The notes under the pieces: generated by a model
What the model was told of the DNA's origin: nothing
Seen by the model: only the letters and a program-made list of their open reading frames with translations
The model's database searches: none
Part shown: positions 30,798 through 42,966 of the stretch, piece by piece
Layout of the letters: each line of letters opens with the position of its first letter
Position numbering within the stretch: position 1 is the stretch's first letter
From: Acetatifactor muris
GTDB taxonomy: Bacteria > Bacillota > Clostridia > Lachnospirales > Lachnospiraceae
NCBI GenBank assembly: GCA_023664365.1
Contig: JAMPFR010000009.1
Span: forward strand, 1-64,000
Reading direction: 5' to 3'
DNA length: 64,000 nt
Position numbers and translations under genes: made by a program

Positions 30798-30884
30798 TAC
30801 ATTTACAATATGTTAAAACTTTTATTCTTTATTTTCGTCTGTATTTACAGAGTGGTTTACATCATGTGAAGGGGGATGAATTTT

Positions 30885-32372
30885 ATGAAAATCACAAAAA
30901 GTGCTATAAACGGTATTTTGTATCGTGGAATCTGCGGGGGAGTCTGCGCCGCGCTGACGCTTGCCGCCCTCGCAGGCTGCGGAAACGGCAGCAGCAGCCG
31001 GAACCTGATGAATGAAGTGTCAGCAGGGCGGGAATCGGCAGGCGGGAGCTCTGCGGAGACGGACGGCGGTTCGGTCAGCAGCGCACAGACCGGCGGCTCA
31101 CAGGCTGACGGCGATTCGGCATATTCGGGCGGCGGAGGGCAGACTGACGGCGGTTCGACCATTGAGGGCGCACAGGCTGGGGACGGCCGGGCATATGCGG
31201 ACAGCAGTGCCTCGGCTGACGGCGGTTCGGCCGCCCGCAGACTGCCCTCCGCAGACGCCGTTACCTATACGGATTTTGCGGTGCGCCTGTTTCAGGAGTG
31301 CACCCGCTCCCGGACAGAGGGCAATGTACTTGTGTCGCCTCTGTCTGTCATCAACGCCCTTGCCATGACTGCAAACGGCGCACGGGGAGAGACTCTGGAG
31401 CAAATGGAAGAGCTGCTGGGCGCAGATTTAAATTCTCTTTGCAGTTACCTGAGCAGCTACAACCGAAGCCTTCCCGCAGGGGAAAAGCAGAAGCTGCATT
31501 CGGCTGATTCCATCTGGATAAAAGAGGACAAAAGCTTTACCGCTTCCCCTGACTTCCTGCAGGCAAACGCCGAATGGTTTGGCGCCGACGTTTATATGGC
31601 GCCCTTTGATGCTTCCACTCTCAAGGACATAAACCGGTGGGTATCTGAAAATACGGACGAAATGATTCCTGAGATTCTGGATGAGATTCCGGCAGATGCA
31701 GTCATGTATCTGGTGAACGCTCTTGCCTTTGACGCCGAATGGCAGTCCGTCTATAAAGAGTACCAAATCAGAGAAGGTACCTTCACCCTTGAGGACGGCA
31801 CCGTACAGGATGCCGAAATGATGTACTCCACCGAATATACCTGGCTCCAGGATACACAGGCGCAGGGCTTTGTAAAATATTATTACGACACCGGATATGC
31901 CTTTGCAGCCCTGCTGCCGGATGAGGGCGTCAGCCTGGCGGATTACACGGCTTCCCTTACGGGGGAGCGGCTGCATGAGCTGCTGTCCGATACTGCTTCT
32001 CCATCCCCTTCCGTTGAAGCAGCCATCCCGAAATTCAAATCGGAATACAGCGTATCCCTGAATGACATTCTGGAAAATCTCGGCATGACAGACGCCTTTG
32101 ACTCCGACAGGGCGGATCTCTCCGGGCTTGGAAGCAGCCCTGACGGAACCCTTTACATCAGCCGCGTTCTCCACAAAACCTTTATTGCACTGGATGAAAA
32201 GGGCACAAGGGCCGGAGCCGCCACCGCGGTGGAGATAGTCAAGGAAAGTGCCGCGATAAACCCCCTTGAATCAAAGACAGTTTATCTGGATCGGCCCTTT
32301 GTGTATATGATTATCGACTGTGAAGAAAATCTGCCTGTGTTTATGGGCACGGTGACGGAGCTGGAGCAGTGA
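30885..32372 (+). CDS. Lipoprotein serpin (serine/cysteine protease inhibitor)
   Basis: A 495-residue serpin. A signal peptide ends in the lipobox LAGC (Cys32), so it is displayed on the outer face of the membrane. A 75-residue Gly/Ser/Ala/Asp-rich linker follows, with DGGS units encoded by three identical 12-mers (31062, 31146, 31218). The serpin domain runs from about residue 125: NVLVSPLSVINALAMTANGARGET, the shutter region, the hinge DEKGTRAGAATAVEI (Glu438 at the P17 position) and the closing RPFVYMI. The small-residue hinge predicts an inhibitory serpin. Canonical counting puts P1 at Glu454, but the loop is about six residues longer than in antitrypsin, so P1 is uncertain. The start is the ATG at 30885, with GGGGG 9 bases upstream. 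Confidence 0.93.
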   Translation: MKITKSAINGILYRGICGGVCAALTLAALAGCGNGSSSRNLMNEVSAGRESAGGSSAETDGGSVSSAQTGGSQADGDSAYSGGGGQTDGGSTIEGAQAGDGRAYADSSASADGGSAARRLPSADAVTYTDFAVRLFQECTRSRTEGNVLVSPLSVINALAMTANGARGETLEQMEELLGADLNSLCSYLSSYNRSLPAGEKQKLHSADSIWIKEDKSFTASPDFLQANAEWFGADVYMAPFDASTLKDINRWVSENTDEMIPEILDEIPADAVMYLVNALAFDAEWQSVYKEYQIREGTFTLEDGTVQDAEMMYSTEYTWLQDTQAQGFVKYYYDTGYAFAALLPDEGVSLADYTASLTGERLHELLSDTASPSPSVEAAIPKFKSEYSVSLNDILENLGMTDAFDSDRADLSGLGSSPDGTLYISRVLHKTFIALDEKGTRAGAATAVEIVKESAAINPLESKTVYLDRPFVYMIIDCEENLPVFMGTVTELEQ

Positions 32373-32762: not shown

Positions 32763-33560
32763 TTGCAGACAAGCACAGAACAGCAGGCACTCATCAAACA
32801 GCTGAACGTCATAGATGATGTGTTTTTCCACAAAATTGCAGAAGATAAAGATGTCTGTGAAGAAATCCTGCGGATCATCCTCCAGAAGCCACGGCTGAAA
32901 GTAATAGATGCACAAACACAACGCTTTTTGCGCAATATCGGGGCGCACTCTGTGATCCTTGACTTGCTTTGTGAAGATGAAGATGGCAGCCGGATCAATG
33001 TGGAAATGCAGAAAACTGATGATGACCATGTAAAACGTGTCCGTTTCAATAGTTCCAACATTGACACCACTTTTACAGAAAAAGGATTAGACTATAAAGA
33101 CTTCCCTGACATTTATGTGATTTTTATCTCTAAATTCGATATGTTCCAGAAAGATAAAACGATTTATCATTTGGAAACTATCATTAGGGAAACCGAAACA
33201 TTTGTAGATGATGGCATCCACCGGATATTCGTGAACTGTGCAGTAAATGATGGATCCGATATCGCGGAACTGATGCAGTACTTTAAAAACAGTACCGGCA
33301 AAAACAACAAATTCCCCAAATTATCAGACAGGGTATATTATTTTAAGGAATCAAAGGAAGGAGCTGACGCTATGACACAGGTTGTTGAAGATTACTTTAA
33401 GAAAAGAATTTCTGAGCAAATGTCTGAACACGACAAAGAAACAGTAAAGGTACTTTTGCAGAATGGTGCATCTGTCGATTTGATAAAGAAATCATTCCCA
33501 ACTCTCTCGGTGGAATATATCGAAAATCTGGATCAGCAACTTTCAGTAGTTGGACAATAG
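32763..33560 (+). CDS. Rpn/YhgA-family PD-(D/E)XK nuclease (transposase-related)
   Basis: A 265-residue protein of the recombination-promoting nuclease (Rpn, PDDEXK_2) family. The nuclease core is visible in AHSVILDLLCEDEDGSRINVEMQ, giving the Asp...Glu-X-Gln pattern of PD-(D/E)XK enzymes. A helical C-terminal tail (ISEQMSEHDKETVKVLLQNGASVDLIKKS) is typical. Relatives cut DNA and promote RecA-independent recombination. They occur in many copies in Clostridia and are often mobile. A stop codon lies 18 bases upstream in frame, so the TTG at 32763 is the first usable start, with AAAGGA 10 bases before it. A strong hairpin follows the gene. Confidence 0.88.
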   Translation: MQTSTEQQALIKQLNVIDDVFFHKIAEDKDVCEEILRIILQKPRLKVIDAQTQRFLRNIGAHSVILDLLCEDEDGSRINVEMQKTDDDHVKRVRFNSSNIDTTFTEKGLDYKDFPDIYVIFISKFDMFQKDKTIYHLETIIRETETFVDDGIHRIFVNCAVNDGSDIAELMQYFKNSTGKNNKFPKLSDRVYYFKESKEGADAMTQVVEDYFKKRISEQMSEHDKETVKVLLQNGASVDLIKKSFPTLSVEYIENLDQQLSVVGQ

Positions 33561-33632: not shown

Positions 33633-33646
33633 GACTATCATAACAA

Positions 33647-33819
33647 TCAATCTCCCACTGCCTTCAGTTTCGCATTTGCCGGCTCCAAGATCACATCCGC
33701 CCCACAGTCGCTGATCCGCTCCTCCGTCTCCTTGATCCCAATGAAGATTCAGATCCGTTTATTTTCCCAGTCAACCTTGTTCCATTTCAGCCCTGATATT
33801 GATACAACGACGTAATAAT
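33647..33819 (-). pseudogene. Decayed remnant of an unidentified gene, C-terminal end
   Basis: On the minus strand one frame reads YYVVVSISGLKWNKVDWENKRI, an in-frame TGA, then IFIGIKETEERISDCGADVI and a tail ending at the TGA 33647-33649. A single Trp-to-stop change would join the two parts. No start codon is seen. The GLKWNKVDWENKRI stretch is faintly like a tyrosine recombinase, but this is not enough to assign a family. Confidence 0.3.
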
Positions 33820-33820
33820 T

Positions 33821-34720
33821 TCAAATAAACCCTTTCTTTTTCAAGTAACAATAAGAATCACCGGCGCTGTTAATTTTACGTTCCACAACCTTATCGATGT
33901 GTCTGTCTATACGCTTTTCGACCCCTTTAAAAACTGTATTCACCGTGAATCCGGCCGCCATTCCGGCAGCTGCCCCTATGGGCTTTGCTGCCGGAGCCAA
34001 CGGCGGCACCATGGCAACAGCCATTGTTACAGACACATCCACCGCTCCGGCAACTGCAGCAGAGGCCGCTGATTTTCCTGTGTCGCATACGACGCCCATC
34101 ACGGCCTCATCCGCATCCTGCCTCCCTTTCAGCACGTCATTGCCGTTTTTAACAATGCTGGCCGCCCCGCCGACTATTGCCCCGCCTTTCGCCATGTTAC
34201 CTGCATAATGGCCGACTGCGCCGAGATGCTTGAACGGATTGGCGCCATTCGCCTGGCAGGCTATCAATTCCGTTGTCTTTGAAGAAACTCCACTGTCCTG
34301 AACCCTCGTCGCCGTTTTTGTCTTCCCGTTTTTCAGGGAGCGATTGACGGCGTCGGCTGTCTCCGTTGTACCTACAACATTTGTCCGGGAATACTGTCCT
34401 TCTCTGATTCTTTTAACCGTATCCTGTACGCCGGCGCTGCTCGGTGTGTCTTTGCACTGAAATCTTTTTACGATACGTCCTCCTTGTTTTACTACAATGT
34501 CATCTCGAACGGCAATCGGAGACTTCGTCAGATATGCCCTCCTCCCGGCTGCAATGTTTCTCATGTCCGCATTAAAGCGATCTTTATAGCATATCTCCAG
34601 GACATGCCCCTTCAAATTCTTACAATGCCCGGCTCTCTGAAGAGCCCTCTGCGCCACCGACCATTGATATGTACCGTTTGCCAGCCCGATTCCGTATACC
34701 GTCTTGTCTGCTTTACTCAT
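33821..34720 (-). CDS. Unknown protein with Gly/Ala-rich hydrophobic C-terminal half
   Basis: A 299-residue protein I do not recognise. The N-terminal half is charged and soluble (SVAQRALQRAGHC, then KRIREGQYSRTNVVGTTETADAVNRSL). From about residue 185 there are glycine/alanine zipper-like stretches (GNMAKGGAIVGGAASIVKNG and KSAASAAVAGAVDVSVTMAVAMVPPLAPAAKPIGAA-type), then a basic amphipathic end. The hydrophobic part could insert into or oligomerise at a membrane. It is the last gene of a minus-strand set containing DUF1232 and a kinase-STAND protein. GGAGG precedes the ATG. A role as the effector of that set is possible but speculative. Confidence 0.7.
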   Translation of the reverse strand: MSKADKTVYGIGLANGTYQWSVAQRALQRAGHCKNLKGHVLEICYKDRFNADMRNIAAGRRAYLTKSPIAVRDDIVVKQGGRIVKRFQCKDTPSSAGVQDTVKRIREGQYSRTNVVGTTETADAVNRSLKNGKTKTATRVQDSGVSSKTTELIACQANGANPFKHLGAVGHYAGNMAKGGAIVGGAASIVKNGNDVLKGRQDADEAVMGVVCDTGKSAASAAVAGAVDVSVTMAVAMVPPLAPAAKPIGAAAGMAAGFTVNTVFKGVEKRIDRHIDKVVERKINSAGDSYCYLKKKGFI

Positions 34721-34730
34721 AGAAACCTCC

Positions 34731-34988
34731 TTATCTCGCCACTTTTCTTAATTTTTCCATTCTGTTCTTTGTCATAGCCGAAATACCTTTATTTCCCAGA
34801 ATCCTTCCCTCCCTGCGCCGTTCTATCATATTTTGGTATGAGCCCAGCATTTCCCTGCACTCTCTGCGGTACAAACGCTTCCTGACAGGATGAAAGCCGG
34901 AGGGCTTGCCTGAGAGAAGCTTATCTGCCCTCTTATTAAGAACAACCGTGGGAAATAACTTAGCTGCCGTCTTGTTAAAATAATTCAT
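34731..34988 (-). CDS. Small basic protein of unknown function
   Basis: An 85-residue, strongly basic protein (many Arg/Lys: KRLYRRECREMLGSYQNMIERRREGRILG). No membrane helix and no known domain are seen. Its ATG overlaps the stop codon of the DUF1232 gene (ATGA, 34985-34988), and AGGAGG lies 7 bases upstream, so it is a real translationally coupled gene. The next gene starts 10 bases downstream. Basic charge suggests nucleic-acid or membrane-surface contact, but nothing more can be said. Confidence 0.7.
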   Translation of the reverse strand: MNYFNKTAAKLFPTVVLNKRADKLLSGKPSGFHPVRKRLYRRECREMLGSYQNMIERRREGRILGNKGISAMTKNRMEKLRKVAR

Positions 34989-35554
34989 GATACTGCCTCC
35001 TCTCTTCTTATAAAGGTCACGTTACTGTCCGTTTCCTCAGTTTCCGTTTCCTCAGTTTCCGTTTGAAAAATACGTTCCGAAAACACAACATTTACTGCTT
35101 CCTGAAATGCAGTCATGTTTTTCCTGTACAAATACTCCTTATACCGGCTTAGTTCATCTGCCAGCTTCCCGGCAACTATGCGCAGCACACAGGCGTCATC
35201 CAGCATTCCCATGATAGGAACCGCATCCGGAATCATGTCCACCGGAAGAGCCAAATACGTCAGGGCGGCCATGATGGTGCCTTTTGCTGCCGTCGAGATA
35301 TTGTATTCCCTCTTATGGGAGTCAACCAGCATACCGCAGAAGAGATTAATATTAACGGCTGCTTTCCCCAGCACGGGTATCCGCGCCATTTTTTCTACGA
35401 ACTTACAGCAGTTTTGCGTGAAATCATTCAGTCCCGCTTCGCTCATAGTATTCTGCATCGCTTCCTCCATTTTTTCCATCGCCATCCCGTTCGCCCATTC
35501 CCAGATTTCCTCGTCTGATTTGTTTCTGAGAATGTCTTCATACTTTGTTTTCAT
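34985..35554 (-). CDS. DUF1232/YkvA-family membrane-associated protein
   Basis: A 189-residue protein. The YkvA core is clear at about residues 85-130: TIMAALTYLALPVDMIPDAVPIMGMLDDACVLRIV, matching the family pattern P-D-xx-PD...GxxDD. The N-terminal part is helical and acidic, and the C-terminal tail is rich in Glu/Thr (TETEETETEET). Family function is unknown, although members cluster with stress and conflict genes. AAAGGAG precedes the ATG. A shared 16-bp promoter box lies 77 bases upstream. It is followed by two coupled genes. Confidence 0.85.
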   Translation of the reverse strand: MKTKYEDILRNKSDEEIWEWANGMAMEKMEEAMQNTMSEAGLNDFTQNCCKFVEKMARIPVLGKAAVNINLFCGMLVDSHKREYNISTAAKGTIMAALTYLALPVDMIPDAVPIMGMLDDACVLRIVAGKLADELSRYKEYLYRKNMTAFQEAVNVVFSERIFQTETEETETEETDSNVTFIRREEAVS

Positions 35555-35604
35555 AGCTTTTATGCTCCTTTCTTTTGGGTTACCTGTTTCTTGATTACAG
35601 GCTT

Positions 35605-35646
35605 ATTATAACAGCCCCCCTATTCTGAATTGTAAAAATGCTTTTC
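35605..35646 (-). promoter_or_regulatory. Shared-box promoter of the DUF1232 operon
   Basis: On the minus strand GAAAAGCATTTTTACA (35631-35646) is followed after 20 bases by TATAAT (35605-35610), about 50 bases before the DUF1232 start. The 16-mer and the 20-base distance recur at 38877-38918 upstream of the kinase gene. Confidence 0.65.
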
Positions 35647-35663
35647 ATCCCGCAAGAGCCGCA

Positions 35664-35704
35664 AAAAAACAGGTGAACAGCGCTCTGCCGTCCAACCTGT
35701 TTTT
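35664..35704 (-). terminator. Terminator of the kinase-STAND gene
   Basis: On the minus strand AAAAACAGGT, a 21-base loop and ACCTGTTTTTTT form a stem ending in a long T-run, 41 bases after the kinase gene stop. It separates that gene from the DUF1232 promoter. Confidence 0.75.
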
Positions 35705-35744
35705 GAAAAATAGTACGATTGACACTGATTCATACAACCGCTTA

Positions 35745-38700
35745 TTACTCCATCTCTTCCTCCATGACCTGTTTGAAGCTTTGCTTACAAACCTCCTTGA
35801 TTTGGCTAAGTGCCATAAAAAAGTATTGCTTTGACCGCCTTAAATTTTTCCGGCGCAAACTAACGGAAACAAGCCTTGAATAAGCGGTTAAACGTGCGCT
35901 GTCATTTTTTTCCGTATATTCCAGTGACTGCCGGATCATTTCTTCTGCTTCCTCCAGCTTTCCCATTTTTTTATACAATACGCCCATCTGGCACAGCAGA
36001 GCCGTCAGCATTACCATATCCCTTTCATCTTCCTCTGTCTGCAAACACAGCTTTAGGGATTTCTCACCATATTCCGCAGCCAGTCCCAGAGTCTTTTTAT
36101 CCGTCAGATAGAATCGGCAGGCCAGCAGATAACTACTTCCCAAAAGAAGAATTTCTCCGTCCTTATAGCACTGCTCCGCAAAATCCATCAGATTTTTCAA
36201 TACCTGCTCTGCGTCTGCAAATACCTCTTTATCGAATTTCATAAAAGGAAGACTGTAATATTGGGATACCAGATCCAGGTAGGCAAATGCATCATCATAA
36301 CCGTCGGTATTCAAATACGCAAAAGCCTTCTTATAGCATTTACGCGCCTTACGAAAATTATAGGCCCACTTACAATGGTTTCCCCACTGCCTGTATATCT
36401 CGCTTAACTCATTTTGATCACGGCAATAATCTATCGCCCGCTTATAATAATGACTTGCCTTAAACGGATACAATTCGCCCGACAATTTCATAATTTCCAC
36501 AAGGTTCTCTCCGCCTTTTTGTTCTTCACATACAGCGAGAGCCTTTTGAAGATACATTTTTGCCTCTTCAGGATCGTTTATCATCGACAGGCGGCTCAAA
36601 TCACAATATATCTCAGATACGGCGGTATCCTTTTCACCGGATGCCTGCCGATAAATATCCAACGCCTTTTCCAATGCCTTCTTATAGGAAGCAAAGTTCC
36701 CTGTCATTTGCAGCACGGAGGATACTTCCTTCAGATAATATGCCACCTCAACCGATCTGTAGTCTCCATCCGTTAATTGCTTTGCGATATAGGATAAATT
36801 TCTGAATACCTCGTTCTCATACTCTTTATCATAGTCATCGCTGTTATATTCCTTAAGGCTGTTCCCAAGGAGCGGCTCCATCCACGCTGTATCGGCTCCT
36901 GCCGCACTTCTCACCACCGCCGCAACAACAGGATGTACTGCAATGCGGTCTGTTTCGGCGTCAAGCTTTATCCACCCCTTTTCCGTCAATTCATTCACAT
37001 CGTCACAGGTTTCCAGACCGCACCATTTTGCAAAGCACTTCGTATGAATTCCCGAAGAAAGCAGAATGGAAAGATTTTTAAGAATAAATAACTCCCGATC
37101 CCCCACATTGGACATATCAAATATGCCTTTAATAAGCTCATATACACTGTTTTTCCGTATTACATTATCTTTGTTTAATGCGATTCTTTCCTTTCCGATG
37201 TCCGAAAATCCGTGACTGCGTAGTTTAGCCAGCATTATATCCGGACGGATTCTGCCTGCCTTCATTAATTTTGCCAGAAGCTCCACCGCCAGCGTGTGCC
37301 TGCTTACCCATTCAATTATTTTATCAATATCCTCCCATTCCTTCTCATCGGCGGATGTACCGTAATAGGAATGAAAGATTTTATGAATATCGGAAATATC
37401 CGAAAGACCGTCCAGCTTCATGGCATTTAAACCGTAAACAGAACCGTCCGCCTGAGACGTAATAACAACCTTGCACCCCACAGACAATAACTCGGCAAGT
37501 CCGGCATCCTCAAAATCCGTTAAATTATCAAGAATAATCAAGGTATCCTTATTCCCTGCATCCACCAAAGATTTAAACTTTCTCATTTTTCTTTTGTAAT
37601 ATGCTGGGAATTCCTCTTTTTCCAACCTGCCAAAATGATATATGTGAAAAATTTCATCGTCACCAAAAACGCATCTGATATCATCCGCATAGGGAGCAAA
37701 AATAACACTCTCATACTCCTGCTTATATTTCACTGCGTATTGCTTCATCAATTCGCTCTTCCCGATACCGTCGATTCCATACAGGCACAATACCGGGTTT
37801 GAATGCAGTCTTTCATGGATTTCTTCCAGCTCCGCCTCACGGCCGACAAAACAATTATTCGGGTTTGGTATATAGCTTAAAATATATTTTCTTCGAGGAT
37901 CCGCCAGTTTTAGCAGTTCTTCTATAAATTCCTTCAATGCCTCATCGGAGGAAAACCGCCTTTTGATATTGACCGCCAGTGTCTTATGGAAAAACTCGGT
38001 CAGCTTTTCAAATATGGCAGGATTCAGATTTTCAACAATACGCTGATCCGCCTCATCAAAATTCCACTCGCAAGAACGTTCCCTGTCCGAAGAAGTTATA
38101 TCTCTGTGAAATAAATAATCAAATACGATGGCTCCAACGGCATAAAAATCCGTTGCGGGGCACAGCGATTTCCTCTCTCCGTATTCTTGTTCCGGAGCAG
38201 CCCACTTAGGGGAGTACGATACTATATCTCCCTCTTCCTCCAGCTCTGTCCTTTTAACAATACTGTCAAAATCAAACAGCATGACATGCTCGTCCGTCTC
38301 CGGTATTCGAAACACATTGGCAGGCTTAATGTCTAAATGCAGTATTCCCTTCTCATGGTATACTCCCAATACCTTTGTGAGCGACAATACTATCTTCAGC
38401 AGCTCCTCCAACGATTCCGCGGGCCTTTTGTCAAAGCTTTCCCCCGTCATATCTGTTGTAACAATATACTCCGTTCCATAACCGTAACAATACGCCTCTG
38501 CAGGTATGATAGAATTGGTAAGGCGGGCGTCCCGCCTTAATTCCTGCTGTAAATCATAGCTTCTGCGGAACCGCGTTAAACCCTTGTTAAATTCTTCCGT
38601 ATTCTCCTCCGGAACCACATCAAGCTTTTCGTTTCTGACGCATACGGGCAGCACCGGGAAGTATTCCTTTATCCTCATCTTCCGTTTATCTTCTTTTACG

Positions 38701-38822
38701 GCGTCATAAACAATACAGCTGGCGCCGTTACCGCATACGCCTGCAATCGTACAGGTTATTTTTTCCTTACTGCCGCTGTCTGTCAAAATAATGGTTTGAC
38801 CGGCCTTAAATGGTGTCTGCAT
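35745..38822 (-). CDS. Ser/Thr protein kinase fused to STAND NTPase and TPR repeats
   Basis: A 1025-residue soluble protein. Residues 25-300 are a Hanks-type kinase: glycine-rich loop GVCGNGASCIVY, Lys52 in RIKEYFP, catalytic HLDIKPANVF (162-171), DFDS in place of DFGS (184-187) and APEQ (209-212). Residues 325-560 are an NB-ARC/STAND module with FVGREAELEEI, Walker A GIDGIGKS (349-356) and Walker B TLIILDN (about 427-433). A winged-helix-like part follows, and the C-terminal 350 residues carry repeated helical pairs typical of TPRs. STAND proteins act as ligand-triggered switches in defence and signalling. A kinase output on a STAND-TPR sensor is unusual. It is flanked by an HTH-like gene and the DUF1232 operon. 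Confidence 0.88.
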   Translation of the reverse strand: MQTPFKAGQTIILTDSGSKEKITCTIAGVCGNGASCIVYDAVKEDKRKMRIKEYFPVLPVCVRNEKLDVVPEENTEEFNKGLTRFRRSYDLQQELRRDARLTNSIIPAEAYCYGYGTEYIVTTDMTGESFDKRPAESLEELLKIVLSLTKVLGVYHEKGILHLDIKPANVFRIPETDEHVMLFDFDSIVKRTELEEEGDIVSYSPKWAAPEQEYGERKSLCPATDFYAVGAIVFDYLFHRDITSSDRERSCEWNFDEADQRIVENLNPAIFEKLTEFFHKTLAVNIKRRFSSDEALKEFIEELLKLADPRRKYILSYIPNPNNCFVGREAELEEIHERLHSNPVLCLYGIDGIGKSELMKQYAVKYKQEYESVIFAPYADDIRCVFGDDEIFHIYHFGRLEKEEFPAYYKRKMRKFKSLVDAGNKDTLIILDNLTDFEDAGLAELLSVGCKVVITSQADGSVYGLNAMKLDGLSDISDIHKIFHSYYGTSADEKEWEDIDKIIEWVSRHTLAVELLAKLMKAGRIRPDIMLAKLRSHGFSDIGKERIALNKDNVIRKNSVYELIKGIFDMSNVGDRELFILKNLSILLSSGIHTKCFAKWCGLETCDDVNELTEKGWIKLDAETDRIAVHPVVAAVVRSAAGADTAWMEPLLGNSLKEYNSDDYDKEYENEVFRNLSYIAKQLTDGDYRSVEVAYYLKEVSSVLQMTGNFASYKKALEKALDIYRQASGEKDTAVSEIYCDLSRLSMINDPEEAKMYLQKALAVCEEQKGGENLVEIMKLSGELYPFKASHYYKRAIDYCRDQNELSEIYRQWGNHCKWAYNFRKARKCYKKAFAYLNTDGYDDAFAYLDLVSQYYSLPFMKFDKEVFADAEQVLKNLMDFAEQCYKDGEILLLGSSYLLACRFYLTDKKTLGLAAEYGEKSLKLCLQTEEDERDMVMLTALLCQMGVLYKKMGKLEEAEEMIRQSLEYTEKNDSARLTAYSRLVSVSLRRKNLRRSKQYFFMALSQIKEVCKQSFKQVMEEEME

Positions 38823-38876
38823 AAACTACCTCCTTATTATTACTGGCATTTTAAAAAAACTGCTCTGATACCGGCA

Positions 38877-38918
38877 ATAATAACATAGACAGACCCTGCA
38901 TCTGTAAAAATGCTTTTC
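38877..38918 (-). promoter_or_regulatory. Shared-box promoter of the kinase-STAND gene
   Basis: On the minus strand GAAAAGCATTTTTACA (38903-38918), 20 bases and TATTAT (38877-38882) lie about 55 bases before the kinase ATG. The arrangement is identical to 35605-35646. Confidence 0.65.
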
Positions 38919-38934
38919 CTCTAAACTTTTTCTT

Positions 38935-40125
38935 CTAAGCTTCATCCTCCGAAGAAAGCATATTATCTATGATATTCCTTAATTCATCCAACGGCTGGTA
39001 TAAATCCACATCACAATTCTCGTCATGGCTGCAGGCCGCGCAATGCAGGAAAATCCAGTCATATGGATTTCTGGGATATAACAATGCGTATCCGCACTCA
39101 TACAGCATATCATCCGTTTCTTTCCAAAAGTCTTCAAAATCCTCCTCCCCATTAGCCTTCTTGTTTTCAACCTTCTTAAAAAAACAGTAAAATTTTAATA
39201 AAATTAAGGCCTTTCTAATTGCATCATAGGAGGACTTTATATCTTCGTTTTGTATATCGGACATGGTCTTCTTACTCGGAAAATTATTCCGGACAACTTT
39301 TACAAAGTCGGAATCTTTATTTATAGTAATCTTCTTTCCGTCCGTATCGGTCTGCTCTCCATATATTTCATATATAGCGCCCAATAATTCATCATTAGAA
39401 CTCACTCCTGCCAATTCCTTTGCTTTTGCTGACAGTTCTTCATACTTTTTCATAGCTGTTCTATTACCGATAAGAATACCTTCACTGCTCTCGGCATAAA
39501 AATTATCACTGTTTATTTCCACAAAAGCTAAAAAATCATGCTCACTCTTTATTTTTAAGATCATATCGTTCAAAACTTTCGTATGGGTAATAATTTTATC
39601 GCTCTTCAGCTCCTCCTCTTTCTTTGCCTTTAAGATATCTTTCGCGCGCCTCTTCAGTTCTTCCACTTTTTCATAAGGCAAATGATGATTCATACAGAAC
39701 AGGTAGACCGCCTCGCTGACATTTCTGCCGTCATATGGACGGTTTAAATACACCTTTGAGAAAAACTCCGCCGTTTCTTCAACGGTAAAGTCAAGAGCGA
39801 AGCATAATATGAACATATTATCACGGCTTGTTTCATTACCCTGCGGATTTGACCCGCCCGACAGCCAATTCCGGATAGTCGCCATGGGCAGCTCTATTCC
39901 TCTTTCCTCACCGCACTTATCAATAAACAGGCTCAGCTCATCCTCCGAAATGCTTCCGTATTTACGGTTTATAAAGTCTTTAAGTCCTTCGGGAAATGTT
40001 ATATAATTTTCCGGCGTCCGTATATACGCATTTCTGTCCTCAACATTGCTGCTGTCAAAATCAAAAAAGGCACCTATTGATGTCTTTGTTAATTCACCCC
40101 ATTTGTTTTCCGCTTCGTATCCCAC
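38935..40125 (-). CDS. Unknown protein with helix-turn-helix-like segment
   Basis: A 396-residue protein I cannot place in a named family. Around residues 50-95 a segment (LSLFIDKCGEERGIELPMATIRNWLSGG) looks like an XRE-type helix-turn-helix, followed by DNMFILCFALDFTVEETAEFFSKVY, a helical arrangement often seen in regulators near protein kinases in Clostridia. The rest is helical and acidic, with a Cys/His-rich patch near the end (HCAACSHDENC). A TATAAT at 40163-40168 overlaps the upstream ATG at 40170, so I prefer the in-frame GTG at 40125, preceded by AAAGGAAG. It may regulate the two box-bearing promoters downstream; this is inference. Confidence 0.6.
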   Translation of the reverse strand: MGYEAENKWGELTKTSIGAFFDFDSSNVEDRNAYIRTPENYITFPEGLKDFINRKYGSISEDELSLFIDKCGEERGIELPMATIRNWLSGGSNPQGNETSRDNMFILCFALDFTVEETAEFFSKVYLNRPYDGRNVSEAVYLFCMNHHLPYEKVEELKRRAKDILKAKKEEELKSDKIITHTKVLNDMILKIKSEHDFLAFVEINSDNFYAESSEGILIGNRTAMKKYEELSAKAKELAGVSSNDELLGAIYEIYGEQTDTDGKKITINKDSDFVKVVRNNFPSKKTMSDIQNEDIKSSYDAIRKALILLKFYCFFKKVENKKANGEEDFEDFWKETDDMLYECGYALLYPRNPYDWIFLHCAACSHDENCDVDLYQPLDELRNIIDNMLSSEDEA

Positions 40126-40252
40126 ATCTGCTTCCTTTCTCTGATTGTCTGACTTTCCATCATTATACATCTTCCGGAAACATTTTCATAGTCTTCCCTT
40201 GCGGAATATTTTGGTCCTGCCCGGTTATACTACAGAAAAAGGAGATTCAGCC

Positions 40253-40426
40253 ATGAAATATATTTGCGACGTATGCGGATGGGAATATGATGAAGAAACC
40301 GGGTATCCCGAGGGCGGAATCGCCCCCGGAACCCCTTGGGAAAATGTACCGGAAAATTTTTTATGTCCTCTCTGCAGTGTGGGCAAGGAACTTTTTTCCC
40401 CGGAAGCACAAAGTCAACACAATTGA
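40253..40426 (+). CDS. Rubredoxin
   Basis: A 57-residue rubredoxin: CDVCGWEYDEETGYPEGG and, 30 residues later, CPLCSVGKELF supply the four Cys ligands of the single iron. It is a cytoplasmic one-electron carrier for oxygen or peroxide detoxification in anaerobes. GGAGATT precedes the ATG at 40253. It is divergent from the HTH-like gene and convergent with the GH88/105 gene, with no redox partner nearby. Confidence 0.93.
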   Translation: MKYICDVCGWEYDEETGYPEGGIAPGTPWENVPENFLCPLCSVGKELFSPEAQSQHN

Positions 40427-41685: not shown

Positions 41686-42966
41686 TTATGGCTCTATGGG
41701 CGTGGGATTTTCCTCCACCACCCAGGGCAGCCCGTATTGATTCAGCGCTTCCATAAAGGGATCCGGATCAAACTCTTCCACATTGAAGACTCCCGGCTTC
41801 TTCCAGGTGCCGTTCATAACCAGCATGGCTCCTATCATGGCCGGAACTCCCGTAGTATAGGAAATTGCCTGAGAACCCAGCTCCCGATAACATTCCTGAT
41901 GATCACAGACATTGTAAATATAGATGGTTTTCTCCCTGCCGTCCTTGACTCCTTTAAAAATACAGCCGATATTGGTCTTGCCCACGGTGCGGGGCCCCAG
42001 AGAAGCCGGATCGGGAAGCAGCACCTTCAGAAACTGGATGGGCACAATCTCACGCCCCTCGTACATCACAGGGTCTGTGCGCAGCATCCCCACGTTTTCC
42101 AGACATTTCATATGGGTCAGATAGCTCTGTCCGAAGGTCATAAAGAAACGGATCCGCTTAACGCCGGGAATATTCTGCGCCAGGGACTCGATCTCCTCAT
42201 GGTGCAGAAGATACATATCCTTTTTGCCCACCTGGGCGAACTCGTACTCTCTCTTGATCTCCATGGGCTTTGTCTCCACCCAGTGACCATCCTCCCAGTA
42301 GGAGCCGTTGGCGGAAACCTCCCGGAGATTGATTTCCGGATTAAAGTTGGTGGCAAAGGGATAGCCGTGGTCGCCGCCGTTGCAGTCCATGATGTCAATA
42401 TAATGGATTTCGTCAAAATAGTGCTTCAGGGCATAGGCGGAAAACACCCCGGTGACGCCGGGATCGAAGCCGCTGCCCAGCAGCCCCGTGATGCCTGCCT
42501 TTTCAAAACGCTCCCTGTATGCCCACTGCCAGGAATAGTCAAAATAAGCCGTAAAGCCCTTTTCCCGGCAGCGCTTTTCATAAGCGGCCCGCCACACGGG
42601 ATCCTCGGTATCCTCCGCCTCGTAATTTGCGGTATCAATATAATCCACGCCGCAGGCCAGGCAGGCGTCCATGACTGTCAGATCCTGGTAGGGCAGGGCC
42701 AGATTCAGCACTGCCTTCGGCTGTTCTCTTTTTATTAGGGCCTTCAGATCCTCCACGTCGTCCGCGTCCACCTTTGCCGTGGTAATAACAGGAGCCTGCT
42801 TCCCGGTTTTCTTACATTCTTCCTCAATTTTTGCCTTCAGGGCGTCGCACTTGCCCACCGTGCGGCTGGCAATGCAGATTTCCGAAAACACATCCGCCTT
42901 CCCCGCACACTTCTGAATTGCCACGGACGCTACGCCTCCGCAGCCGATAATCATGATCTTAGACAT
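41686..42966 (-). CDS. Carboxynorspermidine/carboxyspermidine dehydrogenase
   Basis: A 426-residue saccharopine-dehydrogenase-fold enzyme. It condenses putrescine (or diaminopropane) with aspartate semialdehyde and reduces the product with NADPH. The N-terminal Rossmann motif is IIGCGGVASVAIQKCAG. LNLALPYQDLTVMDACLACGVDYIDTANYE, LGSGFDPGVTGVFSAYA and MDCNGGDHGYPFATNFNPEINLREVSANG-type segments are specific to this branch rather than to lysine enzymes. Its partner decarboxylase is nspC at 23780. The pairing is established for the alternative spermidine pathway. GAGGAG precedes the ATG. Confidence 0.92.
   Translation of the reverse strand: MSKIMIIGCGGVASVAIQKCAGKADVFSEICIASRTVGKCDALKAKIEEECKKTGKQAPVITTAKVDADDVEDLKALIKREQPKAVLNLALPYQDLTVMDACLACGVDYIDTANYEAEDTEDPVWRAAYEKRCREKGFTAYFDYSWQWAYRERFEKAGITGLLGSGFDPGVTGVFSAYALKHYFDEIHYIDIMDCNGGDHGYPFATNFNPEINLREVSANGSYWEDGHWVETKPMEIKREYEFAQVGKKDMYLLHHEEIESLAQNIPGVKRIRFFMTFGQSYLTHMKCLENVGMLRTDPVMYEGREIVPIQFLKVLLPDPASLGPRTVGKTNIGCIFKGVKDGREKTIYIYNVCDHQECYRELGSQAISYTTGVPAMIGAMLVMNGTWKKPGVFNVEEFDPDPFMEALNQYGLPWVVEENPTPIEP

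Follow-up and report, generated by a model that had tools for sequence, protein, structure and literature searches.

A movable five-gene block around a kinase-STAND-TPR protein in Acetatifactor muris as a candidate two-operon NLR-like module

Do five adjacent genes around a kinase-STAND-TPR (tetratricopeptide repeat) protein in Acetatifactor muris form one system, and what might such a system do? We addressed this question in a stretch of 64,000 nucleotides (positions 1 to 64,000 of contig JAMPFR010000009.1, assembly GCA_023664365.1; hereafter the window), which belongs to a genome of 3.86 Mb in 174 contigs (G000). An initial annotation had singled out these genes as a candidate signalling or defence system. 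We found that the five genes are one unit, and we read this unit, with about even confidence, as a movable two-operon NLR-like module composed of a TPR sensor, a STAND switch, a kinase, a dedicated regulator and an effector operon. All five are present on the minus strand with confirmed coordinates and fill positions 33821-40170; the first was correctly recognised as a gene, but its start moves from 40125 to the first ATG of its open reading frame, at 40170. Starting with the regulator, they are as follows.

38935..40170, minus strand: putative transcription regulator of 411 residues, with a predicted helix-turn-helix (HTH) domain at about residues 56-145 and a helical part towards the C-terminus; it pairs with the kinase gene.
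35745..38822, minus strand: kinase-STAND-TPR protein of 1025 residues, assigned from Pfam and from catalytic and Walker motifs, with a Hanks-type kinase (about residues 1-305), a STAND NTPase (about 311-660) and a TPR region (about 690-1010).
34985..35554, minus strand: DUF1232 protein of 189 residues, first gene of the putative effector operon, above the Pfam cut-off as initially proposed (PF06803, 41 bits against 23).
34731..34988, minus strand: basic protein of 85 residues (23 Lys plus Arg, 6 Asp plus Glu), whose gene and the DUF1232 gene share a 4-nt overlap.
33821..34720, minus strand: candidate effector of 299 residues, with an N-terminal E...D...QxKDT motif and a Gly/Ala-rich, hydrophobic C-terminal half.

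The strongest evidence for a unit comes from other genomes. A peptide-pattern scan with the 299-residue protein across an 84,980-species genome collection, which detects close relatives only, returned a single locus, in a Roseburia sp. metagenome genome (L102 in G583). This locus carries all five genes in the order of the window, with protein identities of 83, 83, 62, 79 and 88% from the regulator to the 299-residue protein, and in a blastn comparison of its 16.9 kb the similarity is confined to window positions 33820-40169, at 84%. In a genome from another family of the class (L105 in G305), one strand encodes a regulator homologue, a kinase-STAND protein of 1005 residues, an NYN-domain protein and a 272-residue homologue of the 299-residue protein, the three homologues being 31, 31 and 38% identical to their window counterparts in the aligned parts. 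The NYN nuclease-family gene (Pfam E 2.9e-33; PADLOC E 1.2e-19) stands in place of the DUF1232 and 85-residue genes. The order of the regulator, kinase-STAND and 299-residue-type genes is kept across families, and the middle genes are exchanged. Because the same five genes occur in the same order at a second place, chance juxtaposition is excluded; we reject a chance neighbourhood also on the order kept in both L102 and L105 and on the shared box described below.

The block has, moreover, changed place. On a contig of G583 other than that of L102, a homologue of the window gene at 41686-42966 (90% protein identity; its product is presumably a carboxynorspermidine dehydrogenase) and a serpin gene lie next to each other in convergent orientation, with 132 bp between them. 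The same two genes lie 9.3 kb apart in the window, where a 380-residue gene without a Pfam match, a rubredoxin gene, the five genes and an Rpn nuclease gene intervene. Since the flanking genes are adjacent without the block in G583, the block must have moved. DNA identity between the two genomes is 84% for the block and 80-83% for the flank, and this similar divergence indicates relocation without implying that the block passed recently from one species to another. The window serpin gene itself (30876-32372; Pfam E 2.7e-88), beside the inserted stretch, is 65-69% identical in DNA to its G583 counterpart in the aligned parts. In G022, the only other genome placed in the same genus, no match to the 299-residue, DUF1232 or 411-residue proteins was found. 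With this absence, and with the block missing from the corresponding site in G583, we reject a fixed core gene; the proposal of an acquired block, rather than a housekeeping core gene, is supported. A DNA search of G022 for the window's flank had no match, which by itself is uninformative.

Base composition points the same way as the initial annotation, which had described an AT-rich block: G+C is 43.7% in the block against 49.6% in the window, although the 299-residue gene, at 51.6%, is unlike the AT-rich rest. Four block genes have a third-position G+C of 43-54%, and five neighbours that were measured have 64-69%. In the window and in L102, but not in L105, A+T is higher in the block than in its flanks. 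The adjoining gene at 32763-33560, previously called an Rpn nuclease, is indeed of that family (above the curated NCBIfam cut-off), and a possible gene remnant lies between it and the block (33640-33815). On the other side, a 57-residue rubredoxin gene (40253-40426), divergent from the regulator gene, falls within the stretch that is missing at the empty site.

What ties the two operons of the block to each other is a pair of upstream boxes.

38877..38910, minus strand: box TTTTTACA-N17-TGTTATTAT, upstream of the kinase gene.
35605..35638, minus strand: box TTTTTACA-N17-TGTTATAAT, upstream of the effector operon.

An identical 16-mer, GAAAAGCATTTTTACA, occurs in the gaps before the kinase and DUF1232 genes, with TGTTAT(A/T)AT beyond a 17-nt spacer; L102 and L105 have close versions of this arrangement, equally spaced, in both gaps. 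Across 15 whole genomes searched, the pattern TTTTTACA-N17-TGNTANNAT has exactly two sites in each of the three block-bearing genomes, all six inside the block, and four matches in total in the other 12, none of them on a contig that carries a regulator locus of the genome concerned; the reversed control gave two matches over all 15. A first-order Markov model with window composition predicts 0.03 matches per 3.86 Mb, about one tenth of the background observed. With up to three mismatches allowed, the 16-mer matched twice in 14 of 100 window shuffles, against two exact matches observed. The pattern was derived from the very sites counted, so the informative points are that it is absent from the rest of those genomes and that different families share it. 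The boxes look promoter-like, yet are unlisted by a sigma-70 scan.

Could the regulator-kinase pair and the DUF1232, 85-residue and 299-residue genes nonetheless be two unrelated neighbouring operons? DUF1232 homologues and one homologue of the 299-residue protein do occur away from kinases, and the observations that weigh against a single system belong here. DUF1232 homologues were found in 16 other genomes among 200, many through a short motif only; in these 16 genomes no homologue lies on a contig with a listed regulator match, and two fetched loci (L099, L100) show no kinase match nearby. Among the fetched loci, which with the family libraries were what was compared, a homologue of the 85-residue protein occurs only in L102. 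One relative of the 299-residue protein (L142) is alone among housekeeping-looking genes, and candidate antidote genes were not seen there. The short 299-residue type is also rare, because the surveys of the class (391 genomes; only G000 and G305) and of the phylum (398 genomes; only G000 and G652) gave so few genomes; in the family of G305 it occurs in one of 16 genomes, G305 itself. Weak matches in G098, G103, G147, G534, G667, G877 and G678, and at a second place in G652, were set aside as long PDC-M09B-type or unrelated proteins. Against two unrelated operons, however, stand the order kept in three genomes, one of them of another family, the same box before both operons, and an empty site that lacks both together. 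Kept order and shared box already largely refute this alternative, which we regard as highly improbable. The one-system claim of the initial annotation therefore stands in that the block moved as a unit with its order kept, and the co-occurrence behind it is seen for all five genes in L102 and for the trio in L105; the homologues found apart, and DUF1232 relatives without a listed regulator match on their contig, count against it by the refuting condition first set.

To consider what the unit may do, we turn to its largest protein. Pfam finds in the 1025-residue product all three parts that had been named from the sequence: a kinase (PF00069, 57.8 bits against a cut-off of 31.7), nSTAND6 (29.0 against 27.7) and TPR_12 (51.1 against 30.1). 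The kinase region has the hallmarks of the Hanks type, namely RIKEYFP with the beta-3 lysine, HLDIKPANV for HxDxKxxN, and DFD with the metal-binding aspartate; DFD instead of DFG recurs in relatives, with DMD in L092, and the HxD histidine is replaced in the relatives L087, L117, L118 and L123. The STAND region has a Walker A motif (GIDGIGKS), a Walker B motif (LIILDN) and helical repeats after them, and the L087 relative has a degenerate Walker A. Judged by these residues, the kinase and STAND motifs of the window protein are intact. The closest plasmid matches cover at most 58% of the protein, and its alignment in viral contigs led nowhere. Two further kinase loci were seen in the same genome. 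Beyond the window end by 1.2 kb (L108; G000:C174:65152-65916) lies another Hanks-type kinase gene, 29% identical in the kinase domain, with a small HTH-like-looking gene behind it; elsewhere (L107; G000:C119), a tandem pair of kinase genes precedes two genes that look by eye like phosphatases, a separate signalling cluster.

The suspected HTH-like segment of the 411-residue protein receives moderate support, its model showing a CI/ComR-type domain followed by helices; the HTH-like fold suggests a DNA-binding domain of CI/RRNPP type. PDB sequence profiles gave nothing credible for this family. Pfam and PHROG searches returned no match for the 411-, 85- and 299-residue proteins, among which NCBIfam matched the 411-residue protein only, at 12 bits and far below cut-off. 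A survey of the regulator family found 17 places in 16 other genomes, and a kinase gene adjoins at 14 of them (L082-L094, 13 loci, and L044, a weak case whose regulator-like stretch is interrupted by in-frame stops and lacks a match at the level of open reading frames). The three places without a kinase neighbour are L081, L095 (207 bases from a contig end) and L045 (a response regulator). In the class survey, the closer regulator type occurred in three of 291 genomes, each time beside a kinase-STAND gene. Conversely, kinase-STAND genes were examined at eleven places, most of them found via the regulator or the 299-residue protein: ten have the regulator (the window, L102, L105, L082, L083, L087, L092, L117, L118 and L123) and L111 does not. 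Among the matches listed, five other genomes span kinase and STAND, four of them with the regulator.

This family-wide pairing bears on a second alternative, that of stress or envelope signalling, in which the kinase-STAND protein would sense a host signal and, with the regulator, tune expression of DUF1232 and membrane proteins. In its favour, the regulator family also pairs with kinases in which no STAND match was seen, one of them fused to DUF5050 (L091), and the L092 pair lies beside a carbohydrate phosphorylase gene; further, Pfam, PADLOC and NCBIfam assign no known defence family in the block beyond domain-level kinase matches. Its patchy, movable distribution and the exchange of the middle genes for an NYN gene argue the other way, as do defence-type neighbours at two loci. 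In L087, a TerB gene and a PDC-M09A-type gene follow directly behind the regulator and kinase-STAND pair, and in L117 (IMGVR_UViG_3300037044_000163, from a viral collection) the pair has two genes for DNA methylases and two for MvaI/BcnI restriction endonucleases as neighbours. On balance we consider this alternative rather unlikely.

The 299-residue protein is a candidate effector. Five short relatives are available (the window, L102, L105, the faecal contig L101 and L142), three of which belong to a block, and E42, D74, Q88, K90, D91 and T92 are invariant in all five. We take this motif to be Mrr-like PD-(D/E)xK, from which we infer a possible nuclease-like function of the N-terminal half. 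Gly and Ala abound in the C-terminal half, whose hydrophobicity is moderate (best 19-residue mean 1.77). Residues 111-214 align with PDC-M09B-type proteins (hhalign probability 88%), longer proteins that share part of the 299-residue protein. PDB sequence profiles yielded nothing credible for this family either. The L101 relative, the sole match in the phage collection, lies on an unverified 6.5-kb contig, near a DNA methylase, a DUF3825 gene and an open frame whose HTH and STAND matches are weak and below cut-off. Alignments of the 299-residue protein in viral contigs led nowhere, as did the DUF1232 protein, which gave two partial matches against plasmids. Two observations concern similar proteins elsewhere: PDC-M09B- and PDC-M09A-type genes recur together in L096, L097 and L144, with a TerB-type gene in L096 and L097; and at L098 (G147:C73), a 427-residue, perhaps unrelated protein with a similar Gly/Ala segment is beside a 1317-residue gene product that looks by eye like FtsK/EssC, perhaps a type VII secretion cluster.

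Such a protein could also be the toxin of a toxin or toxin-antitoxin cassette, controlled by the kinase, the DUF1232 protein or the 85-residue protein, with maintenance of a genomic island as its main role. The last three genes are tightly coupled, as initially claimed (the 4-nt overlap is followed by a 10-nt gap), and the hydrophobic half, the invariant motif and the change of place of the block would all suit a toxin. However, plasmid records contain no match for the 299-residue protein or its L101 relative, and the candidate antidote genes are replaced by NYN in L105 and were not seen in L142, making a cassette of this kind improbable in our view. For the signalling or defence system first proposed, the unit and the intact kinase and STAND motifs are in favour, but its defence part is conjectural, the 299-residue protein having one match in the phage collection, on an unverified faecal contig, and none among plasmid records.

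Returning to the NLR-like module, we infer the following course of events. The TPR repeats would sense a signal, most plausibly a product of a phage or other invader, upon which the STAND domain would switch on NTP binding and oligomerise, bringing together and activating the N-terminal Hanks-type kinase domains. The kinase may then phosphorylate the HTH regulator encoded next door, altering its grip on the two near-identical boxes, so that the alarm (the kinase gene) and the effector operon would be made together. The 299-residue protein would harm the cell or the invader, in defence, and the DUF1232 and basic proteins might help or restrain it. More tentatively, we propose that an NLR-like receptor acts through a phosphorylated dedicated regulator on a closed two-promoter regulon, made up of just the receptor's own gene and an effector operon of exchangeable content, which would give an inducible, self-amplifying response instead of a pre-loaded effector. 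Two forms of this operon were seen, DUF1232/basic/299-residue and NYN/299-residue, and the replacement of the middle genes suggests a modular effector slot in gut Clostridia. If correct, the module would link an NLR-type receptor with a kinase and with induced transcription of the effectors it commands. Such a layout is well known in the immunity of animals and plants but, to our knowledge, rarely described for bacterial STAND systems, of which Avs is an NLR-like example. With its two shared boxes, the circuit lends itself to direct testing.

How does this block compare with known systems? No paper on this gene combination was found among open-licence PMC papers. Several candidates can be set aside. 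MADS was rejected, as MAD6 (NF047741; E 1.7e-13) reaches 50 bits against an NCBIfam cut-off of 460, and the FxSxx-COOH system TPR protein likewise (NF040586, 64 bits against 300); for MAD6 and for PD-T4-6 (PADLOC, E 8.9e-19) the best stretch is the kinase region only, and all three matches are of domain level. PDC-M09 was rejected because none of the five proteins has a listed match to M09A or M09B (for the kinase protein, among the best 25 of 33 matches); the likenesses are the M09B-type alignment given above and the M09A-type gene and TerB behind the kinase-STAND gene of L087. For PDC-M72 there is a weak PADLOC match to PDC-M72B (E 1.7e-4) in the N-terminal half of the 299-residue protein, at residues 30-147, with no other M72 match listed. 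A kinase-based antiphage module, the kinase-kinase-phosphatase system KKP, is already known (PMC11341870). A Hanks-type kinase is central to the phage response there, as it may be here. Unlike KKP, the block has one kinase and no phosphatase match among its five genes in Pfam, on which grounds KKP was rejected, and the available text on KKP mentions neither STAND nor TPR (PMC11341870). Kinase effectors of STAND-linked systems have also been predicted, with S/T/Y kinases listed among the effectors of STAND conflict systems in the accessible parts of two papers (PMC7159879, PMC8195603). As far as that text goes, the kinase domains of these systems are mostly catalytically disrupted (PMC7159879), whereas the key kinase residues are kept here. 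Like the NLR-like STAND systems described there, the 1025-residue protein unites an effector domain, a STAND NTPase and repeats in one chain (PMC7159879, PMC8195603); unlike them, to the extent that those portions describe them, the block places the kinase inside the STAND protein and has an HTH-like regulator of its own, and its effectors form a second operon with the same box.

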